Shown here: one piece after another, positions 7,235 to 19,114 of the stretch
How the letters are laid out: each line of letters opens with the position of its first letter
Position numbering within the stretch: position 1 is the stretch's first letter
IMG/VR virus record: IMGVR_UViG_3300025532_000328
Location: 1 to 20,501 of that record
Direction: 5' to 3' (one strand)
Source of the DNA: a virus
Length of the DNA stretch: 20,501 nt
Made by a program: the position numbers and the translations under genes
The notes under the pieces: model-generated
The model's database searches: none
Seen by the model: the letters and a program-made list of their open reading frames with translations, nothing else
What the model was told of the DNA's origin: nothing

Positions 7235-10200
7235 TTAACTTTCGACGATGTGCACCGGGGAGTCGACGTCAAGTTCGCCCCGGCGGTAAGCGTTAATTGC
7301 GTCCTGCGTGCTGCGATATACCCTGGGCTTAGCTTTTTTATCGATGCGGCTCGAGGCAAGATACACACCGGTCTGATAGTCCGCGTTCGGCACGTAATGC
7401 GCCTTGAAGTTGGATGTTGCAAAAAGGTTTTTGCTGGGAAGCATCTTTTCGACTGCTTCTTTTGCAGCGTCTTCTGTGCTGGGAACGTGATATTGCATCG
7501 CGTCTCCGTCAAAGTCGGCACCAAAACCTTTTGTAATGACCGGATTAACCTCCATGACCTTGTTTTTTGTAAGCTTTGGATAGAACGCCATCATACCGTA
7601 TCGGTGCAGAACCGGCGCACGGTTGATAACGATAGGCCGAGACGACATCTGGGTCTCCAGCTCTGCCATCGCCTGTTTATTGCGGTCTTCGACAGCCTGC
7701 AGCGCCTGCATGCGCGGTAACCCGCGGCGCACTAGCCCGCGCACAACAAACGGCTTGTAAACGGCCCAGGCCTTGTCTTCGGGCAGCGCGACCTCGTCCA
7801 TGTTCAGGTCTGGGTTCGGCGTGATCACCGCCCGGCCCACAAGGTCAACCGTGGTGCTGAGCAACTTACGCTGCACGGTGCCGTATTTGGGCGAAGAGCC
7901 AAAAATATGGGACAAGAAGCCTTTCACGCGGCGTTCCTGGTTTTTTGGCTGCGTCGGATCGCCGAGCCCGGTCACGGCTTTCATAGTGTCGTACAGCGCC
8001 AGCCGTTCGTCGCCATAGCTTTCAAGCGCACCAGATGCCTCTTTCAAAGTGCTGTTGGCGTCCAGCAGTTCTTTGTAGAGATAGTTCGCATCGGCAACCA
8101 GGGGCAGTTTTTTATTACCCATTGTGCTGACCGGCCGGAAGAGCGGCGGCAGGACGGGCATTTTTGTCAGCATCCAATCTTTGGGATGCACGCCGGTCTG
8201 CTCTGCGTTCTTCAAGTATCCCAACTTGCGCACCGCAGCGTCGCGCAGGGTCTTCCGGCCGGACTTGATATCTTCGCGCACCTGCTCGAGCATTTTTGGC
8301 AGGTTAATCCGAGATAGCGCGTTTTGAATCGCTTTGGGCCCAGTCTCGTCGTGGATCTTGGCTTCGCCTGCGAGCACGTTCCGGTACTCTTTTTCAGTCA
8401 GCCCAAGCACGCGACGAATAGGCTCTTCCATGACCGGATTCGGCATCGGTTCGTGCAAAGATATCTTTGCCCACCGGTTGCCGCCGTGGCCGCCCGTAAG
8501 TTTTTCGTCGAAGAGGCCGCCAGCAATCGGCTTCAATCGGCCCTTCCAGTCGACGGTTTCAGAATTCTCGATTTCGCGACCGCCCGCCATGTCATCGACG
8601 TCTTTGTCGGTCAACGCCATGATGTGCGTCTGGCTGCCAGTGCGCACGGTGTTAATACCGGCGCCCTTCAGCTGGTTAACGAACTTTTCGTAGACGTGTG
8701 GCACCTTGGGCAACGGCGGAGTGTATCCGGCCATAAATTGCGACCAGTACTCTGGGTTTGCTTGGCCGCGCACCATCTTGGCGTCCCGGATTACTTTTCC
8801 AGCGCCGTGCGACAGTAACGCGCCAAGATCCAACATTCCGACGCGTTTAGCACCTTCGCTGCCGCCCTTGGCCGGAGTGCCTTCGGCTGTGTAACTACCC
8901 ATCGCGCGGCCTTGCCCTTTGCCTTCGGCCGTGTGGTGCAGCTTCATAAAGAACCGGGAACCGGTCAGCACGCCTTTGATCTTACGACCGGTTTCCGGAT
9001 CAACTACGTCCTCGGTATCAGAGAGGCCGTGCTTCCCAAGCTCTTTTTGAGCGAAATCAACAAGATCAACACTGCCGTCAAAGTCTTTGAGTTTGAACGG
9101 CTGACCCGTTTTGGCTGCAACTTTTCCAAGCGCGGCCTCGATCACCTGCGCGGGATTCACGCGGCTGATAAGTCCAAGCGGGCTGACCAGCACTTCATAC
9201 GGACTGCCGTCTTTATCGTGCGGCATCTGATGGTCAGGCACAATATCGGCAACAACGCCTTTGTCGCCGTATCGCCCGGTCAGCTTATCGCCAACCTGCA
9301 TTTCCGCCTGTGTTTTTACGACGACCTGCACACCCTTGTTGGTATGCGCAACGTCGGTCACGATACCGGGCGAATGATGATCCCAGGTTTCCGACTCGTT
9401 TGAGAAGTTGCCGGCACGCCCGCGGTGCACTTTGCCGTACGTTGTTTCTTTGGCCTTGGCGTGCAGGATTAGCGGATCACCGAACTGCACAACGGCGCCC
9501 TTCTTGATCGCGCCTTTGTCGTCAAAGTTATCAAGCTGCTTTTTGTCGTACTCGCCGGGAAACAACGCAATAAATGCTTTCTTGCCAGCGTGGCTCGAGT
9601 CTGTCCATTCGGCGGCATGCTGATACATGTGCTCGCTGGTCAGCTTGCGCGCTGTGCTTTGACTGATCACAACCGCGTCTTCGTAGTTCTTGCCGTGATA
9701 CGGCAAATACGCCACGCGCAAATTTTTACCCAGCGCTGCAGAACCGGCCGGATCTGTAAAGTTTGAGTGCGCCAGCAGCTGCCCCGGTTGAATAACGTCG
9801 CCAGGCTGCACCGTCGGTGTTTGATGCCAAAACGTTTTCCGATTGAACGGGTGCTCGTTATACAGATCAATATCGTGTTTGTTGCCGTCGCGATCGCGCA
9901 GCACCATTTTGCCAGGTTCAGTTGAAACAACTTGCCCGTGAAATTGCGCGCGTACAGCGCCCAGCTGCTCGCCCATTTCATCTTCGTGCGACGTGCCGTC
10001 TTTGCCGATAATAGCTGACTGCACGTGTGGCGCTTCAGGTCCAACCAGCGGCAGCGCTTGCGTGAACATGCGGCTCGCCATGATCACGCGGTGGCCCTTC
10101 ATGTAAGACTTCATCGGCACCATGTTAGACAGCGCCGAAAACGTGTTGTCCATGTGCGGCAGGCTGTACTGTACTTGCTCGCGCGGCATGTACTTCATCT

Positions 10201-12643
10201 TGCCGTTGACCATCGCGGCAATCATGGGCAGCGTGCTTTTTTCTTCGCCCGGAAACGCCAGCGGCAATTCAGCCAGCTCGCCGGGTGTTTTGTACGTTGT
10301 CTCGCCTGTGCGCGTGTCAATTACGGGTGTGTAGATTTTGCCATCAGCGCCTTTGCGCGCGCCACGAGCAAAGCGCATGTCGACACCGACTTTTCCGCTG
10401 TTGCCGCACCAAAAACCGCAGCCGCCTTTTCGGCGCACGTAAAGCAGGCCGCCGGGCACGGTCGCGCAATACACCAGGCCGTCGTACTGTTGCCGGAAAT
10501 AATGGCATTCGCCCTTGGGCGTATTCGGCAGCACTTGATGGCTAGTCTGTTTGTGTACGTGCACGACCCAGCAGCCGCCGACCGCTGCGTGAGGGCGCTT
10601 GTCGCGCTCGAACACGACTTTGCATGAATAACCCAGCCCAAAAGCCAGCCGCTCAAAATCAAGCGCGAGCTGGTGGCTGGCAGTGCAAAAACAAGTTCTT
10701 TCGCCGCGCTTGTTCTTGCGCCCTTCACTTTTCATCAGCGCGTCAAACAACCGAAAGCGGGCAGAAACCGGCGCATCCAAGAACTCTTCTGGGATCCAGC
10801 GGCCCGGGCTGCCGTGGAATTGCTTGAAATACGCCGCAACTTGTTTTGTCGCGATCGAAAACGCCTTGCCGTGATAACCCCACTTAAACGGCAAGCGGCT
10901 CAACAACGCGCGGATTTGGTCGCAGTTTTCCGGATTGTGCTTTTGGCACTGCGTGATCTTAATCTGAAATTGCGACTTCTCCGGGCGATACACGCAGCTG
11001 CCCTCGCCCAAATACCAGCCGAGCAGTTCTGCCCAATCGTCCAACAAAACGTTGCCGACGACAACCCGGTTATTGCTCTCGTAAACCGGCGCCGGAATGC
11101 TAAACACGGCGGCAGAAACGCCGCTGTACGGGTCAAAACCGGCAGAAAGAACACCGCGAAACTTCAAGTGTGTCGTTTCGGCGGATTCGATTTTGTACGG
11201 CGCGCCTTCGTAAAGCGAGCGCACATACATCCGGTGATTCGGCGTCACAAGATAGTTAATCTTGCCGGTAGCAGCGCCGTACATTTCGCCGACGTAGCGC
11301 GATTCGTGCAACTTTTCTGCCTTGTGGAACTCGAGCTGCCCGGCGACCAGGCAGGCAAACTCGTCTCGCTCGGTGACGTCTGGCCACTTTTTCCAGCCAC
11401 CGCGCGTCATAACCTCGGTTTGACTGTCGTAGCACTCGGGCGTGCGCAAGAAATCCACAAAACCAAGATGACTCGGCTGTACGCTGCGCGATTCTTGCGG
11501 CACGGCGTCAAGCGACCCGATGCCGCCTTCGCCCATGCGGGTCACGCGGGATTGATGATCGAAAATCTCGGCCGGATTGATTTCTTCAAGCGAGCTGCCC
11601 AACCCAGAGCCAATCAACGCAGCGCTGATGCCCTTGTTGAACACGCCAGTCGGAAGCCGATCAAGATTTTTCTTGGCGGTTGCTTTCCAGAGAATCTGCC
11701 GCAACGTCTGCCGATCTTTTGTAAACCGCTCGGCGATCAAATCTTCCGGACCCACAACAGATTGGTACGCCATGGCGTCGCGATCGTCCGGGTCGGCTTC
11801 TTTGCGATTGAGCGCGATGAGCTTCTTAGTGATCGCCAGAATTGCGTCCGGCGTAAGATTTTTGTATTCAGCGCCGAGCGTGCGCCGCGTGACATCTGGA
11901 TCCATTTCCATGCGCGCAAATTCGTCGGCGATGGCTTTTTGTTTGCCGGCCGCGTCAATGCCCGGCACTGGTTTGTACACAAGTCGCTGGTACAGTTTGT
12001 CTAACGTGCCCGCGTCGCCTTTCTGCATATTGACGGCTGTAATGTCGTTGCCCCACGCAGCACGAATATCCTGATCGTGCGCGCCCATGGCTTTCAACAA
12101 TGGCAACAGCGGAATTTTGGCCTGCCCAATATTGATGTTGAGCACGCCGGTTTTTGGATCCAAAAAGTAACGGTGCATGCGTCCTTTGCCAGGAAGCACA
12201 TTGACGTGGGCTTCCAGCTCGCCGTTATCTTTTTCACGGGTGTAGACGCCGGGCTTCAGCCGCATCTGGTGTGCCAGCGTGTATTCAACACCGCGGTTCA
12301 CAAACGTGCCAGAATCCGTGAGATACGGCACATGCGCCAGTGTTGTTTGCCGGCGGGCGATTGGCTGGCCCGTCACATTGTCGGTAAGCGACCACGTGCC
12401 GGTCATACGCCGGTGCATAGAGTTACCGGTCAAAATAGCCGTCTTTTGATCAGCCTTGGTAAAACGCTCCGGCCCCGTGTACTTCACATCATGAAGCTGG
12501 AGCGTATAGAGATCGTTTTTAACCGGCTCAAGCGACGACGCACTGCGGAGCGCGCTGTCAAAGATGTTGTTACGCAGCGAACTGATGTCGCCAAACGCGC
12601 GCATTTGCGGCGCCGGAGAACCTGGAAGCATCGAGTCTGGCAT
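7235..12643 (-). CDS. Phage RNA polymerase beta / N-terminal beta-prime fusion, interrupted by an intein (1802 aa precursor, 1457 aa mature)
   Basis: Start ATG at 12643, weak upstream GAG. Beta landmarks: TDSGTFVNRGVE and KPGVYTREK (N-terminal lobe); FDHQSRVTRMGEGG (361-374), matching the rifampicin-site HKRRISALGPGG; LRTPE, matching IETPE just before the intein; NYEDAVVIS (986-994); LTGRYGDKGVV (1121-1131), matching AGRHGNKGVV; GSYTAEGTPAKGG near the end of beta. Beta-prime follows without a stop from about residue 1362: WKGRLKPIAGGLFDEKLTGG, MPVLPPLFRPV, VINRAPVLHRYGMMAF (1672-1687) and the catalytic GADFDGDAMQYHVP, with Asp1710, Asp1712 and Asp1714 as Mg ligands (7502-7516). The beta-prime N-terminal zinc-binding domain is missing. 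The exteins contain no cysteine. The chain stops about where cyanobacterial rpoC1 ends. No sigma, alpha or omega gene is in the window. Identity is certain; virion versus non-virion use is unknown. Confidence 0.96.
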   Translation of the reverse strand: MPDSMLPGSPAPQMRAFGDISSLRNNIFDSALRSASSLEPVKNDLYTLQLHDVKYTGPERFTKADQKTAILTGNSMHRRMTGTWSLTDNVTGQPIARRQTTLAHVPYLTDSGTFVNRGVEYTLAHQMRLKPGVYTREKDNGELEAHVNVLPGKGRMHRYFLDPKTGVLNINIGQAKIPLLPLLKAMGAHDQDIRAAWGNDITAVNMQKGDAGTLDKLYQRLVYKPVPGIDAAGKQKAIADEFARMEMDPDVTRRTLGAEYKNLTPDAILAITKKLIALNRKEADPDDRDAMAYQSVVGPEDLIAERFTKDRQTLRQILWKATAKKNLDRLPTGVFNKGISAALIGSGLGSSLEEINPAEIFDHQSRVTRMGEGGIGSLDAVPQESRSVQPSHLGFVDFLRTPECYDSQTEVMTRGGWKKWPDVTERDEFACLVAGQLEFHKAEKLHESRYVGEMYGAATGKINYLVTPNHRMYVRSLYEGAPYKIESAETTHLKFRGVLSAGFDPYSGVSAAVFSIPAPVYESNNRVVVGNVLLDDWAELLGWYLGEGSCVYRPEKSQFQIKITQCQKHNPENCDQIRALLSRLPFKWGYHGKAFSIATKQVAAYFKQFHGSPGRWIPEEFLDAPVSARFRLFDALMKSEGRKNKRGERTCFCTASHQLALDFERLAFGLGYSCKVVFERDKRPHAAVGGCWVVHVHKQTSHQVLPNTPKGECHYFRQQYDGLVYCATVPGGLLYVRRKGGCGFWCGNSGKVGVDMRFARGARKGADGKIYTPVIDTRTGETTYKTPGELAELPLAFPGEEKSTLPMIAAMVNGKMKYMPREQVQYSLPHMDNTFSALSNMVPMKSYMKGHRVIMASRMFTQALPLVGPEAPHVQSAIIGKDGTSHEDEMGEQLGAVRAQFHGQVVSTEPGKMVLRDRDGNKHDIDLYNEHPFNRKTFWHQTPTVQPGDVIQPGQLLAHSNFTDPAGSAALGKNLRVAYLPYHGKNYEDAVVISQSTARKLTSEHMYQHAAEWTDSSHAGKKAFIALFPGEYDKKQLDNFDDKGAIKKGAVVQFGDPLILHAKAKETTYGKVHRGRAGNFSNESETWDHHSPGIVTDVAHTNKGVQVVVKTQAEMQVGDKLTGRYGDKGVVADIVPDHQMPHDKDGSPYEVLVSPLGLISRVNPAQVIEAALGKVAAKTGQPFKLKDFDGSVDLVDFAQKELGKHGLSDTEDVVDPETGRKIKGVLTGSRFFMKLHHTAEGKGQGRAMGSYTAEGTPAKGGSEGAKRVGMLDLGALLSHGAGKVIRDAKMVRGQANPEYWSQFMAGYTPPLPKVPHVYEKFVNQLKGAGINTVRTGSQTHIMALTDKDVDDMAGGREIENSETVDWKGRLKPIAGGLFDEKLTGGHGGNRWAKISLHEPMPNPVMEEPIRRVLGLTEKEYRNVLAGEAKIHDETGPKAIQNALSRINLPKMLEQVREDIKSGRKTLRDAAVRKLGYLKNAEQTGVHPKDWMLTKMPVLPPLFRPVSTMGNKKLPLVADANYLYKELLDANSTLKEASGALESYGDERLALYDTMKAVTGLGDPTQPKNQERRVKGFLSHIFGSSPKYGTVQRKLLSTTVDLVGRAVITPNPDLNMDEVALPEDKAWAVYKPFVVRGLVRRGLPRMQALQAVEDRNKQAMAELETQMSSRPIVINRAPVLHRYGMMAFYPKLTKNKVMEVNPVITKGFGADFDGDAMQYHVPSTEDAAKEAVEKMLPSKNLFATSNFKAHYVPNADYQTGVYLASSRIDKKAKPRVYRSTQDAINAYRRGELDVDSPVHIVES
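10400..11434 (-). mobile_element. Intein with LAGLIDADG homing endonuclease inserted in the RNAP beta ETPE|G motif, 345 aa
   Basis: Precursor residues 404-748. Splicing block A begins at Cys404 (CYDSQTEVMTRGGW). Block B is VTPNHRMYV (His470). Endonuclease motif 1 is LLGWYLGEGS (540-549, acidic Glu547) and motif 2 is LFDALMKSEG (632-641, Glu640). Block F is GLVYCATVPGGLLYVRRKG, and block G ends WCGN748 followed by Ser749 of the extein. Removing it restores HLGFVDFLRTPE-SGKVGVD, which lines up with the bacterial beta motif HYGRVCPIETPEGPNIGL. That fixes both splice junctions. The penultimate residue is Gly instead of the usual His. Both acidic endonuclease residues remain, so it may still be mobile. 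It holds 13 cysteines while the host protein has none. Confidence 0.93.
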
Positions 12644-14717: not shown

Positions 14718-15110
14718 TTAGTTGCCAAGTTTTCCGGGCGGGCACTTACCGTCCGGGCAATTTGCGGGCAACGTAGTAGCCGGCACGCTTTGCACGGGAG
14801 CAGCGCGGAAGAGCGCAGGGGCCGGCGGCATTTCGCGCAGGGGAAGCGTCGTAACTGGCAGCACGCGCCCAGTCCCTTTACACGGTTTACATGTGTTCAT
14901 GACAATCCCGTCGCCGACTTTTCCGACTCCGTTGCAGTTGGGGCAGATGTCGCCGGGCTGCGGGATTGTTTTGTCGGGCGTACTAGGAAGCAGAGTAGCA
15001 TAAGCAGCCTCTGCAGCGACCACGGCGACATAATCTTTCGCGGGCGCTTGTGCATTGGCTGTACCCGCGGCAGCTGGCGCTGAAAACAACAAAAAAAGCC
15101 ATTCAAACAT
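14718..15110 (-). CDS. Secreted protein with DnaJ-type CxxCxGxG zinc motif pair, 130 aa
   Basis: The start at 15110 (MFEWLFLLFSAPAAA) has AAGGAG with a 7-base spacer. The first 20 residues look like a signal peptide with a likely cut after TANA. Residues 56-63 (CPNCNGVG) and 74-81 (CKPCKGTG) are two CxxCxGxG repeats, as in half of the DnaJ cysteine-rich domain, and probably bind one zinc. The rest is Pro/Ala/Thr-rich, with a second Cys pair near the C-terminus (Cys118, Cys123). There is no J-domain, so this is not a DnaJ chaperone. The motif may serve as a small zinc knuckle for binding protein or RNA, or as an extracytoplasmic redox site. The role is unknown. Confidence 0.75.
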   Translation of the reverse strand: MFEWLFLLFSAPAAAGTANAQAPAKDYVAVVAAEAAYATLLPSTPDKTIPQPGDICPNCNGVGKVGDGIVMNTCKPCKGTGRVLPVTTLPLREMPPAPALFRAAPVQSVPATTLPANCPDGKCPPGKLGN

Positions 15111-15121
15111 GGGCCTGCTCC

Positions 15122-16147
15122 TTAAATGTTACCAAGTGCGCCATAACTCTTGAGCTTCTTCCGGGGCCAGCCGTTTACGCCGGAAAACGCAATCATGTCT
15201 CGGTTTTTGATGTCCGACCATTTCACCCAAAATGCGCCAGTTGGAATGTCGATAAACGTGCCAAAAATGCGTTTACCACCCTCGTTCCAATCGCCCCAAC
15301 TTTGCTGCAACATTACAAGCGGCCCGCCGTACAGCTTGTGAATCTCCGGCCGGTCGTCACAGGCCAGGTAGGCCATGGCGTGTCCCCAAGAGCCTTTGCG
15401 CGAGCTGACGCCGTTTGCGTCACGCTGGTCAGAAAAGCCCTCGCTGCCACACGAGCTTACGGCATAACCGTTCGCCAGCATGTCGCGCAGCTCTTCAAAG
15501 CTGTTCAGCACGGTGGCTGTGCGCAGCAGATGGTTCTTGCCAATCTCGAGCCAGCTGGCGGGCGGAGCACTCCCGCCGTACCTGCCCGCGTTCCGGGAGC
15601 TGTACTCTGTGAGATCCAGGCCAATCTCGGGATAGTCCTTGCGCAGCCACAGGCCGGATTTCTTAATCGCGACCTGCGCCGCGTCAGAACAAAACCAGCC
15701 GTCGCCGGAGTGCCCGCGGAAGTTGTAAAACGCCTCGGTACTGAGCACGCCGCTGGCGATGCCCCTAGCGCTAACCTCGGGCGCGCCTTCCAGCTTGCCG
15801 GTCACTTCGTCGGGCTTGGCGCTGGTGATCTCCGCGCACATGGTGCCTAAGCACGCATTGCGGGTCGACCAGCTGACGCAGTCGCCGCGACCCTGTGCGC
15901 CGCCCGGCAGGCAGCCCGGATAGAGCGCGTAGATCTCTCGAAAGAGCAGCGTGAGCTTGTTTTTGCCGGTTTCTTCCAGGCCGAACTGCGAGCAGGCTAT
16001 CGCCCCCTCGGGCACGCCGCCGTCCGCTGCGATCATGGCCTTCAGCGCGGCGATACGCTCGGGATCGCAAGAAGCACCGATGAAGCCGTCTTCATACGCC
16101 TTGCGAATATCGACGACAGAGTTGAAAAACACCGGTTCGTTGGCCAT
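15122..16147 (-). CDS. Papain-fold (C1-like) cysteine protease-like protein, 341 aa
   Basis: The start at 16147 (MANEPVFFNS) has GGAGGG immediately upstream. The order of landmarks fits the papain fold: QGRGDCVSWS at 85-94 (Gln85 as oxyanion-hole candidate, Cys90 as nucleophile), GSWGHAMAYL at 252-261 (His256), and LQQSWGDWNEG at 280-290, which corresponds to the papain NSWGxxWG element. At that third position the usual Asn is replaced by Gln282. There is no signal peptide and no obvious prodomain; residues 1-80 form a mixed helical N-terminal region. The C-terminal tail is basic (WPRKKLKSYG). Such a protein in a phage could be a maturation protease, a virion protein or a host-surface enzyme. 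The fold is fairly clear but the activity is uncertain. A TAAGGAG at its end couples it to the next gene. Confidence 0.8.
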   Translation of the reverse strand: MANEPVFFNSVVDIRKAYEDGFIGASCDPERIAALKAMIAADGGVPEGAIACSQFGLEETGKNKLTLLFREIYALYPGCLPGGAQGRGDCVSWSTRNACLGTMCAEITSAKPDEVTGKLEGAPEVSARGIASGVLSTEAFYNFRGHSGDGWFCSDAAQVAIKKSGLWLRKDYPEIGLDLTEYSSRNAGRYGGSAPPASWLEIGKNHLLRTATVLNSFEELRDMLANGYAVSSCGSEGFSDQRDANGVSSRKGSWGHAMAYLACDDRPEIHKLYGGPLVMLQQSWGDWNEGGKRIFGTFIDIPTGAFWVKWSDIKNRDMIAFSGVNGWPRKKLKSYGALGNI

Positions 16148-16662: not shown

Positions 16663-17145
16663 TCACTGCGCAGAAGCCGCCACAATGTCGCACGCCTCAA
16701 TGATCAGCGCTTTCGTCTTCTCGTCAGCTGGCACGACTTCTTTGTCTTTACCGAGCTTGGACTCAAACACAGCCTCGATCGCTGTGTCCAGATCTTCGTA
16801 TTTACCCTGAAGCGCCGTGTCGCCGATGGCAAGATTCAGGTGGTTCGCGTGCAACAGCTCCCACTGCTCGGTGGTCTTGATCAGCTTTTCTTTGTCTCGG
16901 CGCACAATGTCCGCGAGCGCCCGGTACAGCCCGTTGATGTGCGCCTTGTCAGCCGCGGGGGCCTTCGCCAAGATCTCGACGATCTTGGGATCCGCCGGCA
17001 CAGTTGGCGCTGGCGCGGGCGCGGGGGCCGGCGTCACAGGCTTCGCCGGACGCGCAAACTGCGGCCCGTGCGGAAACACAATCGATACCGCCAGCAGCAG
17101 CCCGGCGAGCCAGACCAGCGGCGCAGCAGAGTTCTTCTTGATCAT
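16663..17145 (-). CDS. Membrane-anchored helical protein with Pro-Ala linker, 160 aa
   Basis: The start at 17145 (MIKKNSAAPLVW) overlaps the previous stop as ATGA and has GAAGGG a few bases upstream. A basic N-terminus (KK) and hydrophobic segment at 9-25 (PLVWLAGLLLAVSIVF) act as a signal anchor or uncleaved signal. They are followed by a Pro-Ala spacer at about 33-50 (AKPVTPAPAPAPAPTVP). Residues 52-160 are an Ala/Lys/Glu-rich helical domain with no cysteine. The anchor, rigid linker and extracytoplasmic helical domain resemble the layout of envelope-spanning phage proteins such as i-spanins, but no sequence motif supports that name. Function unknown. Confidence 0.72.
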   Translation of the reverse strand: MIKKNSAAPLVWLAGLLLAVSIVFPHGPQFARPAKPVTPAPAPAPAPTVPADPKIVEILAKAPAADKAHINGLYRALADIVRRDKEKLIKTTEQWELLHANHLNLAIGDTALQGKYEDLDTAIEAVFESKLGKDKEVVPADEKTKALIIEACDIVAASAQ

Positions 17146-17435
17146 ACAACACCCTTCGACGGTTGCTGGTACTCCACGATCACGCGCAGCAGCACGGTGC
17201 AGGCTTCTACGCCTTCCTTGCAGCCTTCCGCCGACAGGCGGTCTCGCAGGTTCGTCACCGACACGATGTCGTTCACCAGATTCACGGCGATCGACGGCTG
17301 CACCACCGGCACATCACCGACAGACACGGCAGTCTTGCCAAACAGCGACCGCGCAACGGCGACAAGCTGCTGGCGGTACACAAGCCCGGCGACGAGCGCA
17401 AACAGCCCGGCGCACAGCGATTGAAACTCAGTCAT
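17142..17435 (-). CDS. Small N-terminal-TM protein, 97 aa, unknown
   Basis: The start at 17435 (MTEFQSLCAGL) is preceded by TGGAG at a suitable distance. The in-frame ATG 45 bases upstream has no such site. One hydrophobic segment lies at about 7-30 (LCAGLFALVAGLVYRQQLVAV). A polar region of about 65 residues follows, with two cysteines nine residues apart (GCKEGVEAC) that could form a disulfide outside the cytoplasm. The stop overlaps the next start (ATGA). The gene follows the metalloprotease and precedes another membrane-anchored protein, so a lysis or envelope role (spanin-like or accessory) is conceivable. I recognise no family. Confidence 0.65.
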   Translation of the reverse strand: MTEFQSLCAGLFALVAGLVYRQQLVAVARSLFGKTAVSVGDVPVVQPSIAVNLVNDIVSVTNLRDRLSAEGCKEGVEACTVLLRVIVEYQQPSKGVV

Positions 17436-17476: not shown

Positions 17477-18289
17477 TCACGTTTTAGGAACGAGAATGTA
17501 CGGCTTGCCATTGATAACGATTGTGCCGCCCAAATGCACTGACGCGTCGCTAGTCATCGGCAACGGGTTTTTACGCTTGCCATACAGCTCCACGATTTCC
17601 CGCACATCGCCAGCCTGCGGCTCAGTGACATTCGGGTCGTAATACGGCGCCATCAGGTTGCCCTTCGCTAAATGCGGCAGGCCCAACGCGTGACCCAGCT
17701 CGTGGCAAATCACAGCCACGGCCATGTTGAAGCTCCAGTCCTCGGCTTCATCAAACATTTGATCAAGCTGGATGCGCTCGTGCACGTCGCAAGGCAGCTC
17801 GCTCCACGCCAGCGTGCCGCCACGGTCATCCAGGCCGGCTTTTCGGCCTTTACCTGACCTGGCCAGAATATTGGCCTGCTCAGCCACGTCAGCGCGTTTG
17901 GGCTCGATGTCGCACACCGCCGCCCACTGCGAGAACGCAATGTCGTAGGCTTGCCGGGCCTGTTCTACTGAAATGCCCGGCAGCTGGATGTTCGGGAAGT
18001 ACGTGATGTTCTTGTGCGGCCACCGACACGTCGAGTCGGCCGCCGAAAAATTGAAATCTGGCAGACCGCAGCGGCGCCTAGCCATCACGCTGGCGGTTGT
18101 CACGCCAACGGTACCGTCCGGCTCAATGCCGTGAAAGCGCTGATATTCGCGAATTGCGCGAGTCAGTTCAGCGCCTTTGATCCCTTTAACCTGGTTCCAG
18201 GTCTTTGCGCCGAAATAGCCGAAACCGTAAAGTTTCTGCAGAATTTCGCGGGTGGGGATGACGTGTGAATTAGATGGCATCCTTGCCAT
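17477..18289 (-). CDS. Matrixin (M10-like) zinc metalloprotease with peptidoglycan-binding-like prodomain and cysteine switch
   Basis: The protein is 270 aa. The start at 18289 (MARMPSNSHV) has AAGGA with a 9-base spacer. Residues 15-72 match the PG_binding_1 fold seen in MMP propeptides and lysins (LQKLYGFGYFG, AIREYQRFHGIEPDGTVG). Residues 71-78, RRRCGLPD, closely match the cysteine-switch motif PRCGxPD, with Cys74 the expected zinc ligand of the latent form. The catalytic domain follows: a K/RWPxxxxTYFPN-like entry strand near 89-100, AYDIAFSQW (114-122), the zinc site HELGHALGLPH at 196-206 (His196, Glu197, His200, His206), and a Met-turn at LMAPYY (Met213). A tail of about 30 residues ends it. 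No signal peptide is visible, so export through a holin or release on lysis is inferred. Likely substrates are envelope proteins, S-layer or peptide cross-links; this is not determined. The family assignment is firm. Confidence 0.93.
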   Translation of the reverse strand: MARMPSNSHVIPTREILQKLYGFGYFGAKTWNQVKGIKGAELTRAIREYQRFHGIEPDGTVGVTTASVMARRRCGLPDFNFSAADSTCRWPHKNITYFPNIQLPGISVEQARQAYDIAFSQWAAVCDIEPKRADVAEQANILARSGKGRKAGLDDRGGTLAWSELPCDVHERIQLDQMFDEAEDWSFNMAVAVICHELGHALGLPHLAKGNLMAPYYDPNVTEPQAGDVREIVELYGKRKNPLPMTSDASVHLGGTIVINGKPYILVPKT

Positions 18290-18326: not shown

Positions 18327-18743
18327 TCAGCCGTCGAGCGGTTTGTTGCGCTCGGCCAGCCACAGCAGCTCGTCAATTGCAGCGTCGTCCGCGCTGTCAC
18401 TGAGCTCGTAAACGGCTTCCAGCAGCGGGTTGCGCGCAGCAAAAAGAGTATCGTCCGCGCACGTATTGCGCCAGAGGTCTTTCAATTTTCTGCGCAGCCG
18501 AATCAGCTTGCGCGCTGGCAGTGCCCGCAGCTCGCGCATGTCTAGCCGCAACTCGTCAGTGTTGCGGTGCTCGCGGCAGTACGTGAGTACCTGAATCAGC
18601 ACAGAAATCAACGAGATAATCAGCAGCGGACTGAACTGAATAGATTTGTCCATGCGAAAACTCACCTCGGACTGCAGCTGGTTTTGCAGCTGCGCGAGCG
18701 CTGGTGAATTCTCGAGCCGCTCTTTCAGTTCTGCTTCAGTCAT
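18327..18743 (-). CDS. Single-TM protein with basic cytoplasmic-type segment, 138 aa
   Basis: The start at 18743 (MTEAELKERLENS) overlaps the stop of the holin-like gene as ATGA. An AAGGGGG-like purine run lies just upstream. A polar helix (1-35) precedes one TM segment at about 37-55 (FSPLLIISLISVLIQVLTYC). A strongly basic stretch at 69-92 (MRELRALPARKLIRLRRKLK) and an acidic C-terminal helix with several Asp residues follow. The longer in-frame extension upstream would overlap most of the preceding gene and is Arg/His/Ala-rich like a shadow frame, so I rejected it. Its place between a holin-like gene and a metalloprotease suggests a membrane accessory of the lysis or envelope module, for example an antiholin or membrane anchor. 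No motif shows this. Confidence 0.72.
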   Translation of the reverse strand: MTEAELKERLENSPALAQLQNQLQSEVSFRMDKSIQFSPLLIISLISVLIQVLTYCREHRNTDELRLDMRELRALPARKLIRLRRKLKDLWRNTCADDTLFAARNPLLEAVYELSDSADDAAIDELLWLAERNKPLDG

Positions 18744-19114
18744 GCGCCGCCCCCTTGCTGCCGCAAACGCTGCAGCTCCATCGCAGCGGTCATGTACTGA
18801 TACTTCGCCGTAAGCGCGGCTTCTTTCACCTGAGTGCGCGCCGAAATGAACTTCCACACAAGCGCCGAGTTGAGCAGGATAACCTGCGCGGCTCCAAGCA
18901 GCGCCGACAGCGCTTTCGTGAGCGTCGCCGCGTCTGTGCTGCTGAGCCAACCTAACACGACGCCGACAGTCACAAGATTTGTCGCGGCAGACACAACCAT
19001 GGCCCAAAACTCGGGCGTGAACCAGTCATTCGTGTTCACGGCGCCAACAGATTCTTCGGCAACTTCACCCAAAACGCGCATTTCCTCACGAATCGACGGC
19101 GGGTATACAGACAT
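18740..19114 (-). CDS. Two-TM holin-like protein, 124 aa
   Basis: The start at 19114 (MSVYPPSIREEM) is preceded by AGGAG with an 8-base spacer. That makes it much better than the in-frame ATG 66 bases upstream. A polar N-terminus of about 35 residues is followed by two hydrophobic segments: roughly 36-57 (FWAMVVSAATNLVTVGVVLGWL) and 67-90 (ALSALLGAAQVILLNSALVW). A short loop (SSTDAATLTK) joins them. The C-terminus is charged and helical and ends RLRQQGGGA. Size, two TM segments and a charged tail fit small phage holins, and the next genes include a peptidoglycan-binding-like metalloprotease. No family-specific motif confirms this, and any small phage membrane protein could look the same. The stop overlaps the next start as ATGA, so the two genes are probably translationally coupled. 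Confidence 0.75.
   Translation of the reverse strand: MSVYPPSIREEMRVLGEVAEESVGAVNTNDWFTPEFWAMVVSAATNLVTVGVVLGWLSSTDAATLTKALSALLGAAQVILLNSALVWKFISARTQVKEAALTAKYQYMTAAMELQRLRQQGGGA

Follow-up and report, generated by a model that had tools for sequence, protein, structure and literature searches.

The window, a 20,501-nucleotide stretch of DNA that is an IMG/VR contig, encodes a phage matrixin for which the zymogen architecture of matrix metalloproteases (MMPs) is well supported by sequence, conservation and a confident structural model. As a tentative reading, with somewhat less than an even chance, the protein may be a late lysis or envelope-degrading protease that would be kept latent in the cytoplasm by a Cys74-zinc contact and released through holin lesions.

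Layout, fold and conservation of the matrixin

The coordinates, strand and length given for the gene in the initial annotation are correct (Table 1), Cys74 is residue 74, and the motifs follow one another in the order claimed: a PF01471 domain, RCGLPD, and a matrixin domain with HELGHALGLPH and a Met-turn. Both Pfam matches exceed their curated cut-offs, PF01471 at residues 14-69 (E 4.7e-9, 36.7 bits against 23) and PF00413 at residues 89-237 (E 2.2e-17, 63.8 bits against 24). By Pfam, the matrixin domain is the sole catalytic domain of the ORF, which has no peptidoglycan-hydrolase catalytic domain; a PHROG endolysin family matches the protein at E 3e-4. No signal peptide was seen, and the first 60 residues are of low hydrophobicity in 48 of 48 homologues. 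A short tail of the form INGxPYxLVPxT, conserved across the phage family, forms the C-terminus.

Table 1. Features of the matrixin gene and its neighbours (positions in the window)
Feature	Position	Strand	Basis
Matrixin zymogen gene (ATG start, 270 aa)	17477..18289	-	Pfam, phmmer against PDB, family profile
Prodomain, PF01471 PG_binding_1-type, helical (residues 14-69)	18083..18250	-	Pfam and model helices
Cysteine switch RCGLPD (residues 73-78, Cys74)	18056..18073	-	proMMP-1 alignment and conservation
Matrixin catalytic domain PF00413 (residues 89-237)	17579..18025	-	Pfam and superposition on MMP catalytic domains
Catalytic zinc site HELGHALGLPH (residues 196-206)	17672..17704	-	Invariance in 48/48
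Met-turn methionine Met213, in NLMAPYY	17651..17653	-	Invariance in 48/48
C-terminal tail, GGTIVINGKPYILVPKT type	17480..17542	-	Kept across the phage family; two short predicted strands
Two-TM holin-like gene, two genes upstream (likely ATG start, MSVYPP)	18740..19114	-	Weak Phage_holin_10 matches in homologues
One-TM gene directly upstream of the matrixin	18327..18743	-	Position and sequence kept in all loci compared
Small gene with hydrophobic N-terminus, directly downstream	17142..17435	-	Conserved position
N-terminally anchored protein with soluble C-terminal region, spanin-like position	16663..17145	-	TM prediction and conserved position

The best PDB match by phmmer is full-length human proMMP-1 (1su3, E 8e-17), where one alignment spans the prodomain, the switch (RRRCGLPD on QPRCGVPD) and the zinc site; with the family profile, proMMP-1 is matched at E 3.4e-24. 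In the alignment, the switch cysteine and the first zinc-binding histidine are 122 residues apart, compared with 126 in proMMP-1. An AlphaFold2 model from an alignment of 58 sequences reached a pLDDT of 89.6 and a pTM of 0.86, replacing a poor and unused model from 27 close relatives (pLDDT 56.7), and places prodomain helices at residues 13-22, 31-34, 39-52 and 63-69. All 50 matches listed in a PDB fold search were MMPs (E down to 1e-15), and the best 19 were all pro-forms (proMMP-1, -3, -9 and -10). For proMMP-9 (8k5v_B), 241 columns gave a TM-score of 0.82 by target and 0.71 by query, compared with about 0.50 by query for catalytic-only MMP structures. Since pro-forms outscore the catalytic-only structures, the prodomain is predicted to be placed as in a zymogen; AlphaFold2 may here be recalling MMP zymogens from its training. 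The outcome named at the outset as speaking against an MMP-type zymogen layout, a switch cysteine that could not reach the zinc or a defective catalytic fold, was not seen in the sequence and fold comparisons: the layout is borne out by sequence, by conservation and by the model, which superposes on pro-MMPs over both domains.

A survey of viral genomes for matrixins, proposed with the initial annotation, recovered 68 loci of the family from IMG/VR, several of them on contigs of 194-205 kb, including near-complete tailed phages. Among 48 distinct full-length proteins, the switch residues R73, C74, G75, P77 and D78, the catalytic-site residues H196, E197, H200, G203, H206 and Met213, and the calcium-site acids D154, D180 and E183 are invariant in all 48, as are cysteines 88, 126, 167 and 195 of the catalytic domain. 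Pairwise dN/dS had a median of 0.13 (range 0.03-0.25, 54 pairs), and the gene is under purifying selection. The 68 viral loci, the low dN/dS and the invariance of RCGxPD, HExxHxxGxxH and the Met-turn in the 48 proteins together argue that the feature is not due to chance. PF00413 was found in 11 of 11 near-complete genomes of the phage family. Further afield, of 58 divergent viral and planctomycete sequences at least 90% retain the switch cysteine. Many of them, relatives with a Tat signal included, have no helical prodomain; the persistence of the cysteine where the prodomain is lost argues that it has some function at the zinc.

The phage and the setting of the gene

The RNA polymerase of the window shares 33% identity with its counterpart in the myovirus Salmonella phage Arash. 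The 205 kb genome G001 has homologues of Arash terminase, portal and structural genes, and these, together with the related RNA polymerase, support a tailed phage. The term "jumbo" applies loosely to this family of large uncultured phages, since several members are just below 200 kb. Window positions 7235-12643 (-) encode RNA polymerase beta fused to the N-terminal part of beta-prime (1802 aa; 1471 aa in the G001 homologue), and the length together with alignment breaks at residues 404/749 suggests a putative intein of about 330-345 aa. Several tail-region proteins of G001 (70.6-89 kb and 165.5-170 kb) carry strong collagen triple-helix repeats and laminin-G-like domains.

Gene order in the compared phage loci runs from the two-TM holin-like gene through the one-TM gene and the matrixin to small hydrophobic or TM genes. 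The one-TM gene overlaps the holin-like gene by ATGA. Phage_holin_10 (Pam3 gp28) is matched by three of seven two-TM homologues, with a best E of 1.9e-4 that is below the cut-off, and the window copy has no Phage_holin_10 match. No lipobox was seen in the anchored protein at the spanin-like position. A PGBD-switch matrixin (RFCGCPD) in a different phage contig, L180, also has a TM gene before it and a haem-protein gene after it; this order recurs in two planctomycete elements with terminase and portal genes nearby. In the distant loci L111-L137, a small TM-protein gene adjoins the matrixin in 18 of 27, as a raw count.

Other genes around the matrixin include one for a 341-aa protein (15122-16147, -) which has the look of a papain-type (C1) cysteine protease, with QGRGDCVSW, a conserved histidine (SWxHAMAY) and N-S-W-G, the window copy having Gln where relatives carry Asn; it had no Pfam match and no PDB match by profile. 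Positions 14718-15110 (-) encode a 130-aa protein with a DnaJ-type zinc-finger motif (CPNCNGVGKV...CKPCKGTGR) and weak PHROG matches only. A few genes upstream of the matrixin, an actin-like protein (G001 30020-31054; L082 10521-11555) is probably the source of a Volactin PF25216 match of E 7e-62 in the set.

Proposed role in lysis and its alternatives

In MMPs, extracytoplasmic calcium stabilises the fold, and cutting, displacement or modification of the cysteine opens the switch. From this, and from what is known of holins and endolysins, we infer the latency, release route, trigger and substrate proposed here. A large tailed phage would make the zymogen without a signal peptide, within a late set of lysis or envelope-breaching proteins. 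While the enzyme is in the cytoplasm, a reducing setting low in calcium, the helical prodomain would lie over the cleft with Cys74 on the catalytic zinc, and no protein would be cut. The holin-like membrane protein would then open the inner membrane, and the enzyme would gain the envelope as endolysins do. There the prodomain might be displaced by binding or cleaved off, or the cysteine oxidised, while calcium would occupy its site once the enzyme is outside the cytoplasm. The freed protease would cleave envelope or wall proteins, leading to virion exit. PF01471 is a domain of many endolysins, which makes wall binding by the prodomain plausible.

The lysis or envelope role, raised in the initial annotation as a possibility, is suggested by the conserved order of the holin-like and TM genes, the lack of a signal peptide and, in one genome, the lack of a known peptidoglycan-hydrolase family. 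It is weakened by the holin match, a weak one that falls below the cut-off and is lacking in the window copy, and by the lysis-side neighbours, none of which matches Arash proteins. The four extra invariant cysteines could join in other chemistry, which also counts against a lysis zymogen.

Among the matches listed in a Pfam scan of G001, which covered ORFs of at least 100 aa apart from a few above 700 aa, there was no known peptidoglycan-hydrolase family. All 11 near-complete genomes lack SLT, Amidase_2 and Phage_lysozyme, and G001 shows no match to any of the hydrolases annotated in Arash. These results are suggestive of phages with no second lysis enzyme of a known family. Absence of a family is not absence of a hydrolase, and several large tail or structural proteins of G001 have no Pfam match.

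Each of the 11 near-complete genomes also encodes a single S1 (trypsin-fold) protease, e.g., at G001 44868-45752 (L083). In the eight copies read, the N-termini are signal-peptide-like and Met or Leu takes the place of trypsin's Asp189, which makes trypsin-like specificity unlikely. The S1 protease was considered as activator of the matrixin, by cutting at the basic residues before Cys74, and was rejected since these eight copies lack Asp189.

A broader proposal is that host lysis by such phages relies on a protease zymogen that would replace or precede a peptidoglycan hydrolase, with the switch timing lysis and the peptidoglycan-binding-type prodomain acting as a sensor of arrival at the wall. 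The hosts would be bacteria with an envelope dependent on a protein layer, possibly Planctomycetota; taken as a whole, this is doubtful.

The matrixin lies in one block with the RNA polymerase genes, and virions of phage Arash contain the related RNA polymerase subunits in abundance (PMC10585845). The C1-like cysteine protease gene is found a few genes downstream, and the conserved C-terminal tail of the matrixin could be a packing signal. A protease packed in the virion, which would open a proteinaceous outer layer at entry or process structural proteins in assembly while the switch delays it until assembly or contact, is nevertheless unlikely, as the genes next to the matrixin encode membrane proteins and not components of the tail or head, none of these lysis-side neighbours matches Arash proteins, and the adjoining holin-like and TM genes fit lysis better.

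Action in the cytoplasm on host regulatory or defence proteins, with the cysteine as a redox or metal sensor, would agree with the missing signal peptide but is improbable: the switch would hold the matrixin latent in this reducing compartment, the calcium-site acids are invariant, and most distant viral relatives bear a Tat-like signal or a TM anchor. There is likewise only a slim chance that lysis itself does not need the enzyme, which after release would act beyond the dying cell, for example on biofilm or on proteins belonging to neighbours or competitors. Two points favour such action: bacterial matrixins are usually extracellular, and the Listeria phage-derived metzincin Mtz works in trans on other cells (PMC8235301). 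The gene's place among membrane genes and its very strong family-wide conservation argue against it.

The least probable role, and a very improbable one, is trimming of the phage's own collagen-like tail proteins in parallel to collagenases: several G001 proteins match collagen repeats strongly (E down to 3e-76), but the matrixin has no hemopexin domain, the collagen-like genes are unlinked to its gene and collagen-like repeats are commonplace in phage tail fibres. Animal collagenases need the hemopexin domain for the triple helix.

Relation to known matrixins

Research on cysteine-switch matrixins has dealt with extracellular enzymes from animals, plants and some bacteria. With animal pro-MMPs (MEROPS M10A; proMMP-1, -3, -9 and -10) the phage protein has in common the order of parts, RCGxPD, HExxHxxGxxH, the Met-turn, the calcium-site acids and the predicted docking of the prodomain. 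It differs in having no signal peptide, no hemopexin domain, five invariant cysteines and its own C-terminal tail, at 25-30% identity. Animal-type MMPs have a structural zinc site (three His, one Asp) and a calcium site, and most have a hemopexin domain. In the alignment to proMMP-1, the residues assigned to the structural zinc in the MMP family are missing (LAH is LAW, DAHFD is DQMFD and the DHRD loop has no counterpart), while the acids assigned to the calcium site remain.

Among bacterial cysteine-switch matrixins, the Paenibacillus sonchi plasmid protein WP_202677761 shares the PGBD-type prodomain, PRCGLPD and the matrixin domain. It is not phage-borne, retains the structural-zinc motifs LAH and DVHFD, has long C-terminal repeats and is 26% identical. 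The nearest relatives found in cellular genomes are matrixins of planctomycete prophage-like elements (L044, L045; 35-41% identity), which carry GGTLAWSELPCG like the phage protein and are sited upstream of terminase and portal genes; their switch is VCGVAD or FCGVVE, compared with RCGLPD in the phage, and a haem protein of about 430 aa is encoded next. The MMPs of insect viruses (granulovirus, ascovirus, entomopoxvirus, iridovirus) are also virus-borne matrixins, some with a prodomain, but come from viruses of eukaryotes and have no holin context. They were probably derived from the host.

Phage P1 Lyz is a muramidase kept off by cysteine chemistry until release, via disulfide exchange. Such regulated endolysins are likewise cysteine-restrained lytic enzymes, with disulfide exchange rather than a zinc-cysteine switch. 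The Listeria Mtz/Tim locus encodes a phage-associated metzincin which affects phage lysis by raising sensitivity to it; Mtz is Sec-secreted and partnered by a TIMP-like lipoprotein, and the text of that study mentions no cysteine, zymogen or prodomain (PMC8235301).

Insect-virus MMPs, bacterial cysteine-switch matrixins with a PGBD and the Listeria phage-derived metzincin affecting lysis are thus already known, and structure libraries include phage proteins with a similar fold that are uncharacterised. Among open-access journal papers, none was found to describe a phage cysteine-switch matrixin, and two jumbo-phage reviews do not mention matrixins. The initial description as unusual in a phage stands among characterised phages, and less so more widely, given related matrixins in viruses and prophages. 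Phages and prophages carry matrixins widely, which MMP phylogenies have not considered, a recent one mentioning neither phages nor viruses (PMC12587646). If the lysis reading is true, the switch mechanism extends to phage release, which would suggest protease-based lysis, and the phage matrixin is a small protein that allows separate tests of switch, prodomain and trigger.

By tblastn against annotated phage records, neither the window protein nor the planctomycete protein found relatives. The only matches of a distant-relative query, two and both short and weak, were to "Acinetobacter phage MD-2021a" records, which were set aside; these assemblies are probably bacterial contigs, since bacterial-style rpoB/rpoC pairs are also present. 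A planctomycete host is hinted at by the nearest cellular relatives and was not adopted: among 246 genomes of that phylum, only the query genome itself matched at that grade.

Planctomycete genomes (L044, L045, L079, L080) have a prophage- or gene-transfer-agent-like element bearing a matrixin and haem proteins, along with ParB-like, ABC-GNAT, terminase, portal and tape-measure-like genes. Viral matrixins with an N-terminal TM anchor were seen in L182, L184 and L185, with YFCG in L182 and L185 and absent from L184. Those of L111-L128, L130 and L132-L137 have a Tat-like signal and a short pre-catalytic segment, mostly with a cysteine (e.g., CLCGVPD), which is possibly a minimal cysteine switch.
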